Positions 13,286-62,094 of a stretch of DNA of 64,000 bases are shown in pieces. The stretch's first letter is position 1. Every line of letters begins with the position of its first letter. Both the position numbers and the translations under genes were made by a program. This DNA is from Nitrososphaera sp. (GTDB taxonomy: Archaea; Thermoproteota; Nitrososphaeria; Nitrososphaerales; Nitrososphaeraceae). The stretch lies in the NCBI RefSeq assembly GCF_013388945.1, contig NZ_JACAEH010000004.1, positions 1 to 64,000 of the forward strand. The letters are read 5' to 3'. The notes under the pieces are model-generated. The model did no database searches, had not been told where the DNA came from, and saw only the letters and a program-made list of their open reading frames with translations.

Positions 13286-14585
13286 TCAGGGGAACAAGCC
13301 ACTTTTAATCTTTGTTCTGTCGAGTCCGTTTGGGCAGTTTGCAACTGCTTTAACGGTCAACTGACTCGGCTTCGTTGCATCGACTCTGAGGATTACTGGA
13401 AGATATTCCTCCAGATTCCCCCTCATTGCTTCATGTGCAACGCCTTTTGAATGGGCGAACATCATCCACCCTTTAAGAGACTGGTTCATTGCCGCCACTA
13501 CATCACGGTCTAGCCATCTCTTGCATGAAAGACACCATAGCTGCCTGCGATGGAGTTTATCATCGCGCTTTGCCCCTTGGAGTCTCTCCCCGCATTGAGG
13601 ACAAAGTGTAGATGTATGCTGGGTGTCTTTAACTGACAACTGTATAACAGGTATACCTAACCATTTAGCTTTGTATTCGATTTGCCTCTTGATCTCTCCA
13701 AAAGGCCAGGCATTTAGTCGTCGACGATAATCTCTTCCCTGGCCATTGCCACGGCGATACATTCTGCGTATGTTTGTAATGTTTTCAAATACTATGGCTT
13801 GTTCCTTAACAAGAGATCTATCCATAATGTTTTTTGATACGTTGTGAAGGATGTGGTTAATTCTGTTCTTTCTCCTCTTTCCATACTTTGAAACCAACTT
13901 TCTGCGAATACGATTATCGTTTCTCCTGAAGGATTTTACCACGTCATTAGTGGATTCTGCAATTTCAGCAGCTTGAGACAAGTCGTATTGTACTATTTCT
14001 TTGAAATTGCCGTATGTCACATTGCGGAGGTTTCTGTCAATCCCTGCAGCACTTGTGCAATTCGTCTCACCAACAGCTTTTGAGTACGATATGCTAACTG
14101 TAGTAGGAGTAAGTGTGAAAGAGCGGATATTTAGATCCGGGTCAGACGACAGTACATGTTGAGTATACTTGTTCAGAGGGATCTCAAAGCACTCCCTTTT
14201 CGCAACCGGAACCCCAAGCGTGTTGTTTGATACCTTGAAACCGTAGCATGAAATCAGCTGAGGTTTTAAGGTGTATGGACTTTTAGTCCGAACGCCCCTT
14301 TTCAGAGACTTCTTTCTAGCAGACAAAATTCCTGCTGCTCTGGAGATTGCAGAGCTTGTAATAGTTAAGCATGTCATACTTTGCGAGTTGTTTATGGGCT
14401 AATTGCGACAGCTTTTTCATGTTAGAAGTATCGTTTTCTAATCCAATACGTATGCACTCGTTGACCATCTGACGAAAGATATCGAGCATCTTCAAGATTC
14501 TTCCGTCAGGTTCGTAGTGTTGTTTCACGGACTTGATAGCTGACACACACTCGGATTTGGTCGTGGAAGCTTTGTGCACGGTCAT
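13286..14585 (-). pseudogene. tnpB: TnpB (IS1341-type), split by a 2-nt deletion
   Basis: Two overlapping frames together match the intact TnpB at 32279-33475. The N-terminal frame (14585 to about 14350) ends YYKLCNLQ and the second resumes AISRAAGIL. The intact copy reads YYKLCAIS with TGCGCAAT, and here it is TGCAAT, so one GC is lost near 14349. RuvC residues (GIDRNLRN, VFENITNIRR, DRDVVAAMN) and the zinc finger (CPQC, CLSC) are otherwise kept, so the lesion is recent. The last codons probably run past the element's right end into host DNA. No TnpA partner is present. Confidence 0.85.
13334..13348 (-). repeat. Hairpin at the right end of the TnpB element
   Basis: GCAGTT-TGC-AACTGC is a perfect 6-bp stem with a 3-nt loop near the 3' end of the split tnpB. 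IS200/IS605-family elements end in such hairpins, which also form part of the omega-RNA. Assignment as the right end is inference. Confidence 0.45.
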
Positions 14586-14854
14586 GCAGCCACGCCAATA
14601 CAGGTATTTAATGACAGCAGTACTCTTGGGAGAGGGGGTGTATGCAGTTCAAGTAGCAGTTGGGTAGAACAAGTCTTTAGGATTTGCTTCTCACTTGAAA
14701 AGGCGTAACAAGGCAGGAAATCGCATAGATGAGACCGGTTTAAGGTGTATTCTGAAATGCGGTCAATACGGACATCACGAGGTTGCTCTACAGTGCAACC
14801 GTGTCTCTGCAAAACCTTAAGAACATCACGCCAGCTGTGGTTTCGAAGGGACAT
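14582..14854 (-). pseudogene. HicA-type toxin, degenerate
   Basis: The start MSLRNHSWRDVLKVLQRHGC matches the HicA at 24669 (MSLKNHGWREIRALGHFGY). After about residue 25 the sequence no longer fits: the catalytic G-S-H motif (RQSGSHIVLKN in the other copy) is absent, and the tail runs into the left end of the TnpB element. It overlaps hicB by 29 nt. The toxin is probably inactive, leaving an orphan antitoxin. Confidence 0.6.
14621..14643 (-). repeat. Left-end motif of the TnpB element
   Basis: Read on the minus strand, ACACCCCCTCTCCCAAGAGT precedes the tnpB start by about 35 nt. It resembles the C-rich motif ending in GTGTTCCAG before the other two tnpB genes (21219, 32219). It is probably the element's left end and cuts into the tail of hicA. 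Confidence 0.45.
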
Positions 14855-15056
14855 CTTTTGTTGCTTTAAGGACCAACTGGATGGCTTCCTTCATATTCTT
14901 TTTCAATTCATCCATTGTCCTGCCGGCAGTGATTGCTGCAGGTAGTTCCACGCACTTTCCAGAATAGGCGTACTTTTCCTTTTTGTCATGATGGACTCGC
15001 GCGGTGTACGTCTTTTTGCCTACCTTGACTGGAATCAGTGCGTCTACCACGATCAT
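14826..15056 (-). CDS. hicB: HicB-family antitoxin
   Basis: 76 residues with the HicB core: a degenerate RNase-H-like fold (YTARVHHDKKEKYAYSGKCV ... LPAAITAGRTMDELKKNMKEA IQLVLKA). Such proteins bind and neutralise HicA and often repress the operon. Its partner, immediately downstream, is degraded. A decayed copy of a host gene 3' end (15107-15153) lies just upstream. Confidence 0.75.
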   Translation of the reverse strand: MIVVDALIPVKVGKKTYTARVHHDKKEKYAYSGKCVELPAAITAGRTMDELKKNMKEAIQLVLKATKDVPSKPQLA

Positions 15057-15106
15057 CTATCACTTGTATCCTGACAGATTTATGGATTTGGGTTGCTGCA
15101 TTGGCA

Positions 15107-15153
15107 TCACTTGAACGACGCCAGGATGCGGGCAAAGAGCGAGATCTGAAGCC
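15107..15153 (-). repeat. Decayed copy of the 3' end of the gene at 15864
   Basis: The minus strand encodes RLQISLFARILASFK and a stop. The intact gene at 15864-16814 ends ALQISLFARIRASFK and a stop. DNA identity is high over about 44 bp. The copy lies beyond vapC, so the vapBC module is bracketed by two copies of this gene end. Confidence 0.75.
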
Positions 15154-15187
15154 GTTGCTGAACACTTGTGATGACTGGCTTCCAGCT

Positions 15188-15577
15188 TTACCATCCGTCT
15201 ACCGTAAGCCCGGGTACCCTTTCAAAGTGCTTGGCATTTCTGGTAATCAGGGTTTGCTTGTTTGCCAAGGCAATGCTGGCGATGAATAGGTCGAGCTCGC
15301 CTATTGAATTTGACTTTAATCTTTCTGATAGCTCGCCCCACAGCATGGCAGAGTCATAATTTAGATCGAGTATCTGGAATCTCGCCAGGTCGTCCTTTAC
15401 ATTCGCAAGCGCTCGCGTCTTGTTTTTTGCCCGGTTGGCACCATGGTATAACTCGGCCACCGTTATAGCGGTGGTAAGGACGTTCTCGCCATTCGCTTCG
15501 AATTCCTGCAGTTTCTCTAACGCTTTCTGATTCTTCCTACCCAAGTCGATGAGAAAATCGGTGTCAACACAAACCAT
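15188..15577 (-). CDS. vapC: VapC-type PIN-domain ribonuclease toxin
   Basis: 129 residues with PIN acidic residues in VDTDFLIDLGRK, TVAELYHGA, GELDLFIASIALA and ITRNAKHFERV. The last position is N rather than D, which is common in this subgroup. Start ATG overlaps the vapB stop region (15577). A metal-dependent RNase toxin. The module sits directly downstream of the secreted/membrane gene at 15864, with a decayed copy of that gene's 3' end on the far side. Confidence 0.87.
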   Translation of the reverse strand: MVCVDTDFLIDLGRKNQKALEKLQEFEANGENVLTTAITVAELYHGANRAKNKTRALANVKDDLARFQILDLNYDSAMLWGELSERLKSNSIGELDLFIASIALANKQTLITRNAKHFERVPGLTVDGW

Positions 15578-15810
15578 CAGAGCTCGACCTTTCTGGTCTT
15601 GAAGTTCTTGCGCAGTTCGCGACTCGCCGCTTCTATTGCGTCCGCCAAGTCAGGGTTGGTTTCCCTTTCAAGAAAATAGGCACGGATAGTGGCTGGGTTG
15701 CCCTTTCCGAATTTGCGGAGTATCACATCTGAAAAGGACTCGCCTTCCTTCTTTTCGGCTTTGAGCGCCTTGTAAGCTTCATCCGAGATGGTGATCGTGG
15801 TGCTAGGCAT
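15577..15810 (-). CDS. vapB: VapB antitoxin, DUF217-type
   Basis: 77 residues from MPSTTITISDEAYKALKAEK, then GESFSDVILRKFGKG, the usual start of the DUF217/VapB antitoxins that partner PIN toxins. The ATG at 15810 is preferred over 15831, which lies within the operator repeats. Transcribed toward vapC. Two 10-bp direct repeats lie between its TATA-like box and the start. Confidence 0.82.
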   Translation of the reverse strand: MPSTTITISDEAYKALKAEKKEGESFSDVILRKFGKGNPATIRAYFLERETNPDLADAIEAASRELRKNFKTRKVEL

Positions 15811-15822
15811 ATTCCCAAATAA

Positions 15823-15842
15823 TACATGCACTTACATGCACT
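15823..15842 (-). promoter_or_regulatory. vapBC operator: two tandem 10-bp repeats
   Basis: TACATGCACT occurs twice with no gap (15823-15832, 15833-15842), one helical turn apart, each holding the palindrome TGCATG. A TATA-like TTTAAG lies just upstream on the minus strand (15843-15850). It is a likely binding site for VapB. Confidence 0.55.
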
Positions 15843-15863
15843 TAAATCTTTTTGGAACCGTAG

Positions 15864-16814
15864 CTATTTGAAAGACGCCCGGATGCGGGCAAACAAGGAT
15901 ATCTGCAGCGCTATGATGATTGAGATGAGTGCAAGTATCGGGATTATGAGCGAGTTTATCTGGCCCGACGCCTGCTGGAGGTCTGCCACCTCCTGCCTTA
16001 TCGTCGACGTGGCGTTCACCATGGCCGACTTGGTCTCGTTCAGCTCCCGGCTCGTGTCAGCCAGCTCTACCTTCAGCGTGTTTATCGACTCCTGCACCTG
16101 GCCTATGCTGCTGCCGCTTGACACAACCTTGGAGTCGTGCGCCAAATAGCCCCTGTGGAAAGCCACCGCGTGTATGATGTACGAGCCCTCTTCGGCCAGC
16201 TTGACGTCAGAGTAGTAGATGCCTTCGTGGAGCTTGTTGAACTTGCCGGCGAGGTTTATCGTAGTGTTGCCGGAGTGTATGTGCGATGATGCGAGAAACT
16301 CTGCAGGGTCGGCGTTTACAAGCGCGCCGTCAAACGTGACCTGCACGAATATCCGAAACGTCCTGCCCACCGATATCTCTGTGGGCGAGTCGAGCTTGAC
16401 CGCCAGGACGTGCTGCGGAGGCGTCGACCCCAGCACCGACTCTCTGTCGGTAAAGGTCACCTGCAGGGCGGCCTTGTCCTCCGGGAATCTGGACGAGCTG
16501 ACCTCGATGGTATAGGTGCCAAAGGTAAAGTTCCTAGTCGGCTCGGGCCACTGCATGAGCTGTGTTGTAAACGAGCCGTTGATGTCGGCGTATATCGTGT
16601 CCACCTTGGCGGTCCTGCCTGCAGGATCGATTATCTTGACAAAGAGCGCGTCTGAAGAGCTGACCTTGCCGTACAGGACCAGCGTGTCTCCGGGTATGAA
16701 GAAGGACTGGTTGACTTTGACGATGAAGCGCTGGGAAGTCTGCGCAAAAGAATCAACCGGCACGGAAATTATCAGTATTGCGACTAAAAGGCCGATAACG
16801 GTTATCTTGAACAT
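15864..16814 (-). CDS. Secreted protein with coiled coil and C-terminal membrane anchor
   Basis: 316 residues. A signal peptide (MFKITVIGLLVAILIISVPV to SFAQ), two beta-rich domains (NQSFFIPGDTLVLYGKVSS; AVKLDSPTEISVGRTFRI), a coiled coil at about 240-285 (INTLKVELADTSRELNETK) and a terminal helix (LIIPILALISIIIALQISLF) followed by a basic end. The layout is that of a stalk anchored in the membrane and reaching toward the S-layer. It lies 35 nt after the S-layer gene, past a terminator-like hairpin, so it may be an S-layer anchor (inference). Confidence 0.7.
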   Translation of the reverse strand: MFKITVIGLLVAILIISVPVDSFAQTSQRFIVKVNQSFFIPGDTLVLYGKVSSSDALFVKIIDPAGRTAKVDTIYADINGSFTTQLMQWPEPTRNFTFGTYTIEVSSSRFPEDKAALQVTFTDRESVLGSTPPQHVLAVKLDSPTEISVGRTFRIFVQVTFDGALVNADPAEFLASSHIHSGNTTINLAGKFNKLHEGIYYSDVKLAEEGSYIIHAVAFHRGYLAHDSKVVSSGSSIGQVQESINTLKVELADTSRELNETKSAMVNATSTIRQEVADLQQASGQINSLIIPILALISIIIALQISLFARIRASFK

Positions 16815-23742: not shown

Positions 23743-24498
23743 TCAATTATAGCCCCTGTAATAGACCTTGATGTAATAATGGTCTGTGTTGGTAGCCCAT
23801 GCGGTAGCATCCTGAATTGCTGGTGTTATGGTGTACGTGAAGCTCTTTTCCTGGTTCTGGTTTGCCAGCCCTGACTGTCTCCTGAAAGCTCCAACACCAT
23901 TATCAGGCAAAAACCATGCTCCTAGAATTGTGCCGCCACGTATCATGTCACTTCGTACCATGCTAACGCGCTGTACTGACGACGTTCCTGACTGTGCTGT
24001 TGCAGCTCCAAGTGCCACGTTTATGACGTTGGCTATGGTAGGGGGATTGGCGTCTACCAGATCAACACCGCATTGTACGTTGCCCGCGACTGTCACACCG
24101 TTTTTCCATTCAATCCCGGTTATCTTGTAGAACTTGTATGTGGTAGGCAGGGTGAAGAATGCATAATGGCGTATGTCGTTGCGAACTGTGGTTTGGCCAT
24201 TATCAGTTACAGGTGTAGTACTCTCCTCACCTGCTTCAGGACCAAATACGATCTTGTTTGTTAATGTCTGTATGCTTGCTTCGTCGATTATCTGTTCCCA
24301 AGCGCTATTTGCAGCATTGCGTCTGTAAAGGACACCTGTAGAAAATCCCGACCCAGAAGACGTGCAAAACGCAAGCATTCCCGGCGTTGCAGCCACGCCG
24401 GCAATGTTTGCACCAGTCTCCACCAGCACCGTCTTCCTGTTCAGCCTGTCAGCCGTCAGCCTGTCAGAAACGTCAAACTTGCTGCCATCAGAGCCCAT
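23743..24498 (-). CDS. Unrecognised 251-residue protein, tail-fibre-like composition
   Basis: MGSDGSKFDVSDRLTADRLN is followed by Gly/Ser/Thr/Asn-rich beta-like sequence (LAFCTSSGSGFSTGVLYRR; SFTYTITPAIQDATAWATN) and an aromatic end (HYYIKVYYRGYN). No signal peptide or membrane segment. Composition and order recall virion fibre or receptor-binding proteins, but no motif proves it. It lies beyond a decayed rad50 3' end copy and a HicBA pair, so it may be cargo of an integrated element. Confidence 0.5.
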   Translation of the reverse strand: MGSDGSKFDVSDRLTADRLNRKTVLVETGANIAGVAATPGMLAFCTSSGSGFSTGVLYRRNAANSAWEQIIDEASIQTLTNKIVFGPEAGEESTTPVTDNGQTTVRNDIRHYAFFTLPTTYKFYKITGIEWKNGVTVAGNVQCGVDLVDANPPTIANVINVALGAATAQSGTSSVQRVSMVRSDMIRGGTILGAWFLPDNGVGAFRRQSGLANQNQEKSFTYTITPAIQDATAWATNTDHYYIKVYYRGYN

Positions 24499-24569
24499 GC
24501 AGTTATTCTTCCACGCGGCTTAAAAAGAACTAATTTTCATTGTCGTTTCGGTGAAACGTCGCCATATTT

Positions 24570-24622
24570 TCGCATTACCTTGATCCGCCAGAGGCCATTG
24601 AGAACTTACACGGCGTCCAGAT
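24570..24622 (-). repeat. Decayed copy of the rad50 3' end
   Basis: The minus strand reads KFSMASGGSR, against RFSMTSDGSK at the end of rad50. At DNA level the stretch around CACGGCGTCCA and GATCCG matches 25257-25312 with two small gaps. It brackets the HicBA module together with the true rad50 end. It sits within the 24499-24668 gap, which is otherwise featureless. Confidence 0.75.
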
Positions 24623-24668
24623 TCACTCTCACGCCTATCCTTTTGTTTCATTGCAGCGGACTTTTAGA

Positions 24669-24881
24669 CTATAGTTTCCTAACAAAATCTTCTTTCTTTA
24701 TCTCTGCTTCCAGCAGAATAGCCCGTAGAGTTCCTTCAGGGAGAGGGTCGCGCCTTGGAACTGAAACTGCCATGCCTTTCGAGTTCTTCAGAACGATATG
24801 GCTTCCTGACTGTCTTACCGGAACATAACCAAAATGACCCAAGGCCCTTATTTCACGCCAGCCGTGATTCTTCAGACTCAA
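24669..24881 (-). CDS. hicA: HicA-type mRNA interferase toxin
   Basis: 70 residues: a dsRBD-like fold with the catalytic His in VRQSGSHIVLKN, and the usual end PLPEGTLRAILLEAEIKKED. HicA cleaves mRNA independently of ribosomes. It follows hicB by 9 nt on the same strand. The order antitoxin then toxin matches the degenerate copy at 14.6-15.1 kb, and the N-termini are clearly related. Confidence 0.88.
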   Translation of the reverse strand: MSLKNHGWREIRALGHFGYVPVRQSGSHIVLKNSKGMAVSVPRRDPLPEGTLRAILLEAEIKKEDFVRKL

Positions 24882-24890
24882 GAATTCTAT

Positions 24891-25124
24891 TCAGCTTGAA
24901 ATTTCGATTACTTCTTTTCTGTACTTTCCTTTCTTTGCTTCTTCTTCCAACACATCGAGGATAAGAGATATTGCATCCTTCATATTGACTTTTAACTCTT
25001 CTATGGTTTTGCCATAGCTTACAGCGCCGCGCAGTTCAAGACATCTTCCAGTAAAACCGCCTTCAGGCTCTTCTTGCACCAGTATTGTAAACTTACGCTT
25101 ACCCACTTTGTTGGTAAGTTTCAT
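24891..25124 (-). CDS. hicB: HicB-family antitoxin
   Basis: 77 residues with the HicB core (KFTILVQEEPEGGFTGRCLE, LRGAVSYGKTIEELKVNMKD, AISLILDVLEEE). The partner of the HicA downstream. A TATA-like sequence (GGTTATAA region, about 25152-25158) lies upstream. The module begins about 125 nt after the rad50 stop. Confidence 0.85.
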   Translation of the reverse strand: MKLTNKVGKRKFTILVQEEPEGGFTGRCLELRGAVSYGKTIEELKVNMKDAISLILDVLEEEAKKGKYRKEVIEISS

Positions 25125-25250
25125 TAGTCATTACAAGATAGAGTAAAAGCGGTTATAAGGATTCCGGATTGCACTGTAGTTACGAGCCAACAGCAATTGA
25201 CTGCATTAAAGAACTAATCTCCTAGCTAGTTCCACTGGAAACGCGACCCC

Positions 25251-27344
25251 TCACTCCCGCACCACCTTCGATCCGTCAGACGTCATCGAGAACCTGAACA
25301 CGGCGTCCACTTCCGAGTCTTCGAATATGTCCGCGTCATGCGTGATTATCACCAGCTGCGCAAGCGGGCCTGCGCCTTCCCTGAACGCGTCTGATATTAT
25401 CCTGACAAGGGCCTTGCGCCTCTCCTCGTCAAGGTGCGTCGTCGGCTCGTCAAGGATGACAAAATCAAGCTTGCTTGAGCCCATCATGTATGCGATCCCA
25501 AGCCTGACTGCAAGCGCAACTGCCACCTTCTCGCCGCCTGACAGCGAGTCCATGTCCACCTCGCCGCTCTTGCCGTAGCAGGTGATGACGATGTCCCGGG
25601 CCTTTTCCGCAAGCTCCACCCTCGATATGCCTATGTTAAAGAGCGACGCGTATTCCGATGCTTTTTTCGACACGGTTGCAAGCGCCCAGGAGCGCAGGCT
25701 CATGCCGACTGCCCCGTCGCGGTTGTAGACGTGCTAGCGTATCCTTTCAAGCGTGCCGACAAACTCTGACGCCTGCGAAAGACGAGCAAGCGCTTTCCGG
25801 GCAGACTCGATCGTCGTCTTGGCGTCATCTATAGCACGCTGGTGGTTGCCCATCCTCCTGTTTGCGTCAAGCAGCTTTTGCGAGAGGGTGCCCTTTTCCA
25901 GCTTGGCGTTTGTGTAAGCAGCCTGAGAAAAGCCCCTGACCTTCTCCCTCAGTGACGTAATCTCGGTAGCAAGCGACTGCGAGTGGCCGTCGACTGCAAG
26001 AAGCATCGGATCCTCGACCCTGTTCATGACCTTTGGAAGCTTTGCAAGTGTCGCCTGCATCTGTACAAGCTCTTGCCGCAGCTTTTCAAGGTCGCCTGCT
26101 GATTCTATAGAATTGTCTGAAAGGAACTTTTCTGCGGACGCTATGCGCCTGTCAAGCTCTGCCAGCCTCTTTTCCTCCCTGCCAAGCTCCACCTTGCCCA
26201 CCTGCAGCCTGGACCGCTCGGCCTCCTTCCTTGCCAGCTCGGTCTTGATGTGCGACGTGTCAAACATGCTGTCCACCTTTTCCACCTGCGAGCCGCACAC
26301 CGGGCACTTGCCGTCCTGTACCTGCAGCCTGCCGGCGCACTCCAAGAATCCCCTGAGCCTGCCAAAGTCGCCCTCGTTTTCCACCATCCTTGTCTGGATT
26401 TCTTCAAGCTCTGCGCCGACCATTTTCAGGCGCATCTGCGTCTCGTCCCTGCCACCTACAAGCGCCAGCGCGTCGCCTGCCTCCGCTATCGTCCTCTCTA
26501 GCTTTTTGGCGTCGGCTTCAAGCTGTAATCTCTTTTCGCGCACGTGGCGCAGGAGCAGCTCCTCCCGGGTCGCAAGCTCCCTGCTCTGCGCAATCATGGG
26601 CTCCAGGCGCTCCATCTCCTGCTCCAGGCCGCGTATCCTGCCTTCGAGCAGGATTTTCTCGTCCTCGAACTCGTGCAGGAGCGATTCTGCCTGTGCAAGC
26701 TCTTTTTCCTTGTCGGCTACGAGCTGCTGGACTCGGGGAATGTCCTCGTCGCTGTATCCGGTCTCGTCGCGCAGGCGATCGCGAAAACCAGACACCACGT
26801 CTCTCATCGTCGAAAATGCAAGGTCCAGTCTGTCTATGCCTATCAGGCCGTTCACGAGCTCCTTGAACTCCCTCGGCTGAGCCTCGACTATCCTGACAAG
26901 CTCGCCCTGCTGCACCACCGCTGCCACGCGCAGTTTTTTGTAGTCAAGACCCAGCACCTTTGCCACTTCGGCGCTTGTGGACTCGCCGTACTGCCTGCGC
27001 TCGCCGCCTGCAAGCTTTTTGTTAACAGCCGTGCCGTTTTCAGACAGGAGCTCGAGCTGCGAAAACGCGGCCGTGCCGGAAGGCGCAAGCGACCTTGTGG
27101 CCTGGAACTCTTTTGAATTCAGCGTAAAGCGCATCCGCACCATCGCCTGCCCCTGGCAGCCGCGCCTTACCAGGTTCTTGTTGGCCTTTCTTGTGTGCTC
27201 GCCAAACAGCGCGTACGTGATGGCGTCGATGACAGAGGACTTGCCCGAGCCGTTGTGCCCCACAAAGACCGTTATGCCCCTCCCAAACGCAAGCGTCGTG
27301 TCCCTGTGCGAGATGAAGTCCTTCATCTCGATATCTTTTATCAC
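25251..27344 (-). CDS. rad50: Rad50 ATPase, interrupted by an in-frame TAG
   Basis: The N-terminal part (536 codons) has Walker A (GHNGSGKSSVIDAI), long coiled coils and the zinc-hook CPVC near residue 346. After one TAG at 25734-25736 the same frame continues HVYNRDGAVGMSLRSWAL to the ABC signature (LSGGEKVAVALA), Walker B (FVILDEPTTHLDEE) and the end. No other lesion is seen. Without readthrough the protein lacks half of its ATPase site. The start GTG overlaps the mre11 stop (GTGA). Rad50 works with Mre11 in double-strand-break end processing. Readthrough, a recent nonsense mutation or a base-call error are all possible. Confidence 0.85.
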
Positions 27345-37204: not shown

Positions 37205-37257
37205 AAAATTGCACCATTTTTTCGTGCTTAAAATGATACATGCTGCATCATTTTTTC
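37205..37257. repeat. Dispersed 53-bp palindromic repeat, copy A
   Basis: About 47 of 53 bases match 62042-62094 (AAAATTG, CATTTTTTCGTGCT, AAAATG, TACATG, CATTTTTTC in the same order). The core 37230-37254 is a 25-nt inverted repeat (AAAATGAT/ATCATTTT arms). It lies between the convergent agmatinase and ThrRS genes, where it could act as a terminator. The other copy is not at gene ends. Confidence 0.6.
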
Positions 37258-62041: not shown

Positions 62042-62094
62042 AAAATTGTATCATTTTTTCGTGCTCAAAATGTTACATGATGTAACATTTTTTC
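62042..62094. repeat. Dispersed 53-bp palindromic repeat, copy B
   Basis: Copy of 37205-37257. Its core 62067-62091 is a perfect 25-nt palindrome (12-bp arms AAAATGTTACAT/ATGTAACATTTT around a single G). The outer motif CATTTTTTCGTGCT is conserved. One base pair differs compensatorily between copies (A-T against T-A). It lies between the divergent trm1 and rnhB. Confidence 0.65.

Follow-up and report, generated by a model that had tools for sequence, protein, structure and literature searches.

Insertion accompanied by a long target duplication was reportedly described for restriction-modification genes by Nobusato in 2000 and by Furuta in 2010. According to two summaries of that work (PMC3874152, PMC1643837), such genes are reported to insert with long and variable target duplications of about 100 bp. 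Integrated elements of Thaumarchaeota, recognised by their integrase, measure 2.6 to 140 kb (the smallest, of 2.6 kb, being cryptic), have att sites with a median length of 17 bp and occupy tRNA genes in 39 of 68 cases and 3'-distal regions of coding sequences (CDSs) in 14 of 68 (PMC6563490). In Sulfolobus islandicus, degenerate insertion sequence (IS) elements flank vapBC loci (PMC3718332). No description of toxin-antitoxin (TA) pairs flanked by duplicated gene ends was found among the open-access papers searched.

Two such arrangements are analysed here in the window, the whole 64,000-nucleotide stretch of DNA under study, which belongs to contig 31 of a Nitrososphaera genome of 1.99 Mb. The window features treated here are on the minus strand (Table 1). 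An earlier sequence-only reading of the window had called the underlying mechanism undescribed, which is not supported as stated: restriction-modification genes provide a precedent, with duplications of about 100 bp (PMC3874152), and larger elements are known to integrate at gene 3' ends in Thaumarchaeota (PMC6563490).

Duplicated gene ends around two toxin-antitoxin pairs in the window

The end of rad50 (25208-25309) aligns with a second copy (24524-24619) over about 100 columns at a local score of 54, and none of 5000 dinucleotide shuffles scored above 33. This gapped repeat escapes a direct self-BLAST of the window. The similarity crosses the stop codon of rad50 at 25251 as far as +50 and terminates in the exact 11-mer ATTAGTTCTTT. 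The copy had been rightly recognised in the sequence-only reading by its peptide KFSMASGGSR, but the limits given there, 24570-24622, cover the coding part alone. Relative to the intact end, the far copy carries one 2-bp and one 1-bp gap and is therefore a decayed remnant. Between the two copies, as had also been proposed, lies hicBA, a predicted TA pair whose HicA domain (PF07927) scores above the Pfam cut-off and whose HicB match (PF15919, E=0.011) falls below it. No pair of inverted repeats was found in 24480-25330, which holds the rad50/hicBA insert. Beyond the far copy, the adjacent sequence matches the region before the homologue of the 251-residue gene in the related genome G014. Since this homologue is also found downstream of rad50 in G014, the 251-residue gene, previously taken for cargo, is probably a resident neighbour.

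The rad50 gene of the window also contains an in-frame TAG (25734-25736, minus strand) at a position where the related genome G011 has serine, either a sequencing error or a real truncation; the homologue in G008 has one TAG too in the matched region.

Table 1. Window features of the rad50 and 316-residue gene loci
Feature	Position	Strand	Basis or remark
rad50, host gene	25251..27344	-	ORFs 25734-27344 and 25251-25703; Pfam SMC_N/SbcC_Walker_B
Intact rad50 3' end, near repeat copy	25208-25309	-	last ~57 bp coding and ~50 bp past stop; alignment
hicB-type antitoxin, 77 aa (predicted)	24891..25124	-	weak PF15919 match, E=0.011, below Pfam cut-off; adjoins HicA
hicA toxin, 70 aa (predicted)	24669..24881	-	PF07927 E=3.7e-13, 49.8 bits vs cut-off 27
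Decayed far copy of rad50 3' end and its downstream 50 bp	24524..24619	-	score 54 vs 5000-shuffle maximum 33
251-aa gene, probably resident downstream neighbour of rad50	23743..24498	-	homologue 0.9 kb downstream of rad50 in G014/L033
316-aa gene; intact 3' end 15868-15931 is near repeat copy	15864..16814	-	ORF and alignment
vapB antitoxin	15577..15795	-	PF02697 E=3.3e-18
vapC toxin (PIN)	15188..15577	-	PF01850 E=5.4e-19
Far copy of 316-aa gene 3' end	15111..15177	-	starts -61 from stop relative to G008 empty site; alignment
Second hicB (14826-15056) and hicA-like remnant	14582..15056	-	PF15919 E=1.4e-4, below cut-off; later cargo between far copy and L1
TnpB/OrfB-type gene, further cargo	13286..14585	-	PF07282 E=3.7e-15
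Ribosomal protein L1	12608..13273	-	directly after 316-aa gene at empty site of G008 and G003

The second gene-end duplication that had been pointed out, around vapBC, was likewise recovered: the end of the 316-residue gene (15868-15931) and its copy (15111-15177) align at a score of 50, compared with a shuffle maximum of 35, and the repeat is 42-67 bp long. Alignments no better than shuffled controls are thereby ruled out at both window loci. In 15090-15960, which holds the vapBC insert, two weak inverted pairs were seen, one of them 13 nt at 85%. Terminal inverted repeats of the IS or MITE type were not found at the insert ends, and the window inserts contain hicBA or vapBC only, with no integrase inside.

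For the 316-residue gene, the uninterrupted arrangement is preserved in relatives. In G008, its homologue is followed by 62 bp and then by the gene for ribosomal protein L1, and in G003 the homologue also stands directly before L1. The same interval holds vapBC, the far copy, the second hicB with a hicA-like remnant (an ORF with no Pfam match) and the TnpB gene in the window; two PIN toxin genes, VapB, an HTH gene and one further gene in G012; vapBC and genes that are RelBE-like by eye in G011; and unrelated genes in G014. In G012, a decayed far gene-end copy continues directly into the promoter and start codon of native L1, and when aligned to the empty site of G008 the far copies of the window and of G012 both begin at -61 relative to the stop. 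This comparison of sequences shows the junction between the 316-residue gene and L1 as a recurrently used insertion place, the insertions in the window and in G012 being one old event or two.

Gene ends at other loci and in relatives

The end of rad50 has been used repeatedly: by hicBA in the window's own genome (G000), by a vapB'-vapC fragment with a rad50-end copy in G011, and in G014 by a gene, RelE-like by eye, which separates rad50 from the homologue of the 251-residue gene. In G011, the rad50-end copy spans 30 codons and lies 7.7 kb downstream of rad50, 72 bp beyond the vapB'-vapC fragment, with other cargo in the separating 7.7 kb. The fragment matches, at 100% identity over 455 bp, a portion of a complete vapBC located elsewhere in G011; this piece of vapB and vapC is present at L032:5805-6259 and at L049:1437-1891, where it lacks the vapB start and adjoins the rad50-end fragment. 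Contig scans with the 251-residue protein and the rad50 C-terminus yielded no nearer relative and, in any species, no rad50 directly beside the 251-residue gene; the rad50 insertion is therefore without an empty site of its own.

In the window's own genome, the end of a 331-residue gene flanks a VapC/MazE-type pair with a repeat of 44 to about 90 bp, the gene-end copy reading ASQAAKPDSTPA* vs ASQATRPDSAPA*, with a stop in both. A tRNA-Arg 3' end is repeated (23 bp, one mismatch) around HicAB, and this unit is common to G007 and G000 (L108 and L133) at 85% DNA identity, the similarity ending at the far repeat. A tRNA-Ala 3' end is present in three copies on a single contig, in a tandem array whose second and third copies enclose a PIN/AbrB-type pair. 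There (G000:C9:11502-38482; L110, L264, L265), the three tRNA-Ala(CGC) 3' ends bound a stretch of 25.7 kb and then a TA unit of 1.2 kb; the longer stretch carries genes for a BsaWI-type restriction enzyme, a DNA methylase, a KAP NTPase and a Schlafen AlbA_2 protein, and no integrase was present among the proteins scanned in it.

The tandem position of a TA pair behind the 25.7 kb stretch, together with the 7.7 kb and other cargo that separate rad50 from its copy in G011, would fit an origin of the cassettes as remnants, whereby integrase-carrying elements brought a replacement end to genes and tRNAs at their 3' ends and all but the addictive TA pair was later deleted. Integrase-bearing elements of Thaumarchaeota are known to integrate at such places, 14 of 68 in CDS 3' regions (PMC6563490), and the third-position bias described below is compatible with foreign ends carried by an element. 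However, the inserts repeatedly consist of precisely a single TA pair, with short spacers on either side and both repeats surviving, the CDS repeats far exceed the reported att sites (median 17 bp) in length, and the only tyrosine recombinase detectable with Pfam (PF00589) in the window's own genome is on a different contig, C22. This origin is considered rather unlikely.

Further repeats were found in relatives. The 3' end of an 84-residue gene is repeated around HicBA in G029, and in G015 the promoter and 5' part of a tRNA-Gly gene are repeated around vapBC. The 5' part of an epimerase gene is repeated around vapBC in G087, and G040 has an apparently intergenic 80-bp repeat. In G037, the 5' part of a 137-residue gene is repeated around HicBA over 266 bp at 96% identity, and the native upstream sequence stands next to the intact copy, not the far copy, so that this locus is no textbook target duplication. 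Overall, the CDS repeats are imperfect and measure about 42-266 bp, and those of tRNA 3' ends 19-23 bp. As 3' ends of CDSs and of tRNAs as well as some 5' ends are among these repeats, the targets are gene ends of any kind, with 3' ends the most frequent. The earlier proposal of cassette insertion at gene 3' ends thus stands as to insertion with end duplication and recurrence and was too narrow as to the target, which includes tRNA 3' ends and some 5' ends.

Some repeats of other kinds were also encountered. A 922-residue gene of G005, tried as a further CDS case, was rejected, its copy being a C-terminal anchor common with the neighbouring gene. At L129:5748-6649, also in G005, hicB is partly duplicated on either side of hicA. 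Similar GC-rich sequence, possibly a dispersed repeat, flanks a vapB and a hicBA locus in genus g43 (L181 and L215). The window itself has a 53-bp direct repeat (37205-37257 and 62042-62094), 87% identical and 25 kb apart.

The enrichment of TA genes between such repeats, which the sequence-only reading had proposed to examine, was supported. Within Nitrososphaera and its order, TA-sized flanking direct repeats (local score of at least 40, inner gap of at most 1100 bp, 900-bp flanks) were detected at 14 of 87 TA loci vs 1 of 371 control genes, the latter made up of 341 ORFs of matching size from random stretches and 30 Usp genes (Fisher p = 4e-10). A few of the positives represent tandem hicB or possible dispersed repeats, TA loci from one genome are not entirely independent of each other, and the loci taken from across the order are best-scoring family members rather than a random draw. 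The test covered stretches totalling 1.2 Mb and loci chosen by family rather than whole genomes. Within islands, 6 of 44 TA loci vs 2 of 164 tests of non-TA ORFs were positive (p = 0.001), both of the latter at one locus, the cupin gene end of G015, which is the sole non-TA positive locus there. At this locus (L122:16906-17950), the copy of the cupin gene 3' end lies beyond a 141-residue gene of unknown family, amid five vapC genes. A scan centred on genes, covering 1219 gene ends, agreed with this result, and all shuffles stayed below a score of 32.

Chance, shared domains or tandem paralogues do account for the anchor match of the 922-residue gene and in part for the hicB duplication of L129. 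As a general explanation they are highly improbable in view of the shuffle tests, the empty sites, the tRNA-end repeats and the enrichment tests, and for the two window cases they are already contradicted. Because of the repeats, the empty sites and the 14/87 vs 1/371 enrichment, TA cassettes are taken to insert recurrently at gene ends and to be flanked there by direct repeats that measure about 20-270 bp.

Possible route of insertion

Starting from the repeats, the cassettes between them, the empty site between the 316-residue gene and L1, the gene ends re-used in several species and the TA enrichment, the reading we favour, and hold to be probable though far from certain, is that compact TA cassettes join resident genes at the 3' end by a recombination-type route akin to long target duplication, after which the far end copy decays. 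A cassette would comprise the two TA genes, their promoter and roughly 5-150 bp, and would enter the 3' end of a resident gene, as hicBA at rad50 and vapBC at the 316-residue gene. Upstream of the cassette the gene end would then be complete, leaving the host gene unbroken, and a second end copy would lie downstream. The route may involve strand invasion or end joining at the gene end, and not a transposase borne by the cassette. An insertion that restored the gene would for this reason be tolerated; such insertions would survive selection, the addiction property would then retain the cassette, and the far copy would decay because it is functionless.

Against this reading, repeat lengths vary widely among loci, rad50 has yielded no empty site, and no conserved junction sequence, as looked for on the basis of the earlier reading, was seen by eye. 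Another possibility is the action in trans of a site-specific recombinase on integrase-less TA cassettes bearing an att-like gene end. Such an enzyme would agree with the breakpoint at -61 that is identical in two species and with the 19-23 bp of the tRNA 3' end repeats, a length typical of att sites. It is nonetheless improbable, given that the CDS repeats are imperfect and about 42-266 bp long, that several targets are 5' ends, and that neither a shared core motif nor a candidate recombinase was identified.

In four other pairs of copies, the differences number 8, 10 and 34 at the first, second and third codon positions (34 of 52 at the third), and changed stop codons are still stops. Neutral decay after a simple target duplication would give about 1:1:2, a weaker bias, which also speaks against the favoured reading; the excess over that ratio is modest. 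As the differences fall mainly at third codon positions, the comparison suggests that near or far copies, in some cases at least, evolved as functional ends in another lineage before the two met. Coding-like divergence between copies, and the re-use of orthologous gene ends across species, would also be expected from homologous single-crossover integration of a relative's DNA already bearing a TA pair behind the same gene. Such an event, however, leaves the first insertion at each gene unexplained and would have to rely on copies that share only 40-100 bp at about 80% identity; it is judged less probable still than a recombinase in trans. A retrocopy model, with the copies as ends of 5'-truncated transcripts, was dropped because it gives no account of a TA pair lying between parent and copy and does not hold for repeats at 5' ends. 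Target duplication is consequently preferred to remnants of larger elements, these to a trans-acting recombinase, and the latter to homologous integration.

In a broader and much more tentative reading, type II TA pairs could themselves be mobile cassettes of minimal size, entering gene ends by a dedicated route that restores the host gene without an element-encoded recombinase, and the same route may serve restriction-modification genes. The footprint of gene end, TA pair and second gene end, together with the empty sites, provides a searchable signature with defined junctions and a lead on the unsolved question of how TA pairs move between genomes. It would also explain the presence of TA pairs beside housekeeping genes without harm to these genes.

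Comparison with known systems

Like the vapBC loci of Sulfolobus islandicus, the present cassettes are mobile archaeal TA pairs; unlike them, the two window cassettes are bounded by no IS remnant or inverted repeat, though TnpB genes are near. With the thaumarchaeal integrated elements they share the lineage, the target class (a tRNA or CDS 3' end, with 5'-end exceptions) and a gene end restored by element-derived sequence, whereas they are mostly about 0.6-0.85 kb, without integrase, and have long imperfect CDS repeats.

The likeness to long target duplication, as summarised for restriction-modification genes, consists of an addiction-type pair with no transposase of its own, variable direct repeats of about 100 bp and a single target copy at the empty site. 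Flanking direct repeats of that order were found for rad50 and the 316- and 331-residue genes, and a single target copy without insert in relatives for the 316-residue gene/L1 locus only (G008, G003). The present cases differ in being archaeal type II TA pairs, mostly at gene ends, with copies that have often diverged as coding sequence does, and in that one locus (G037) is not a simple duplication. By the tests made, the present cassettes are a full member of neither class and combine features of long target duplication with those of the thaumarchaeal elements.
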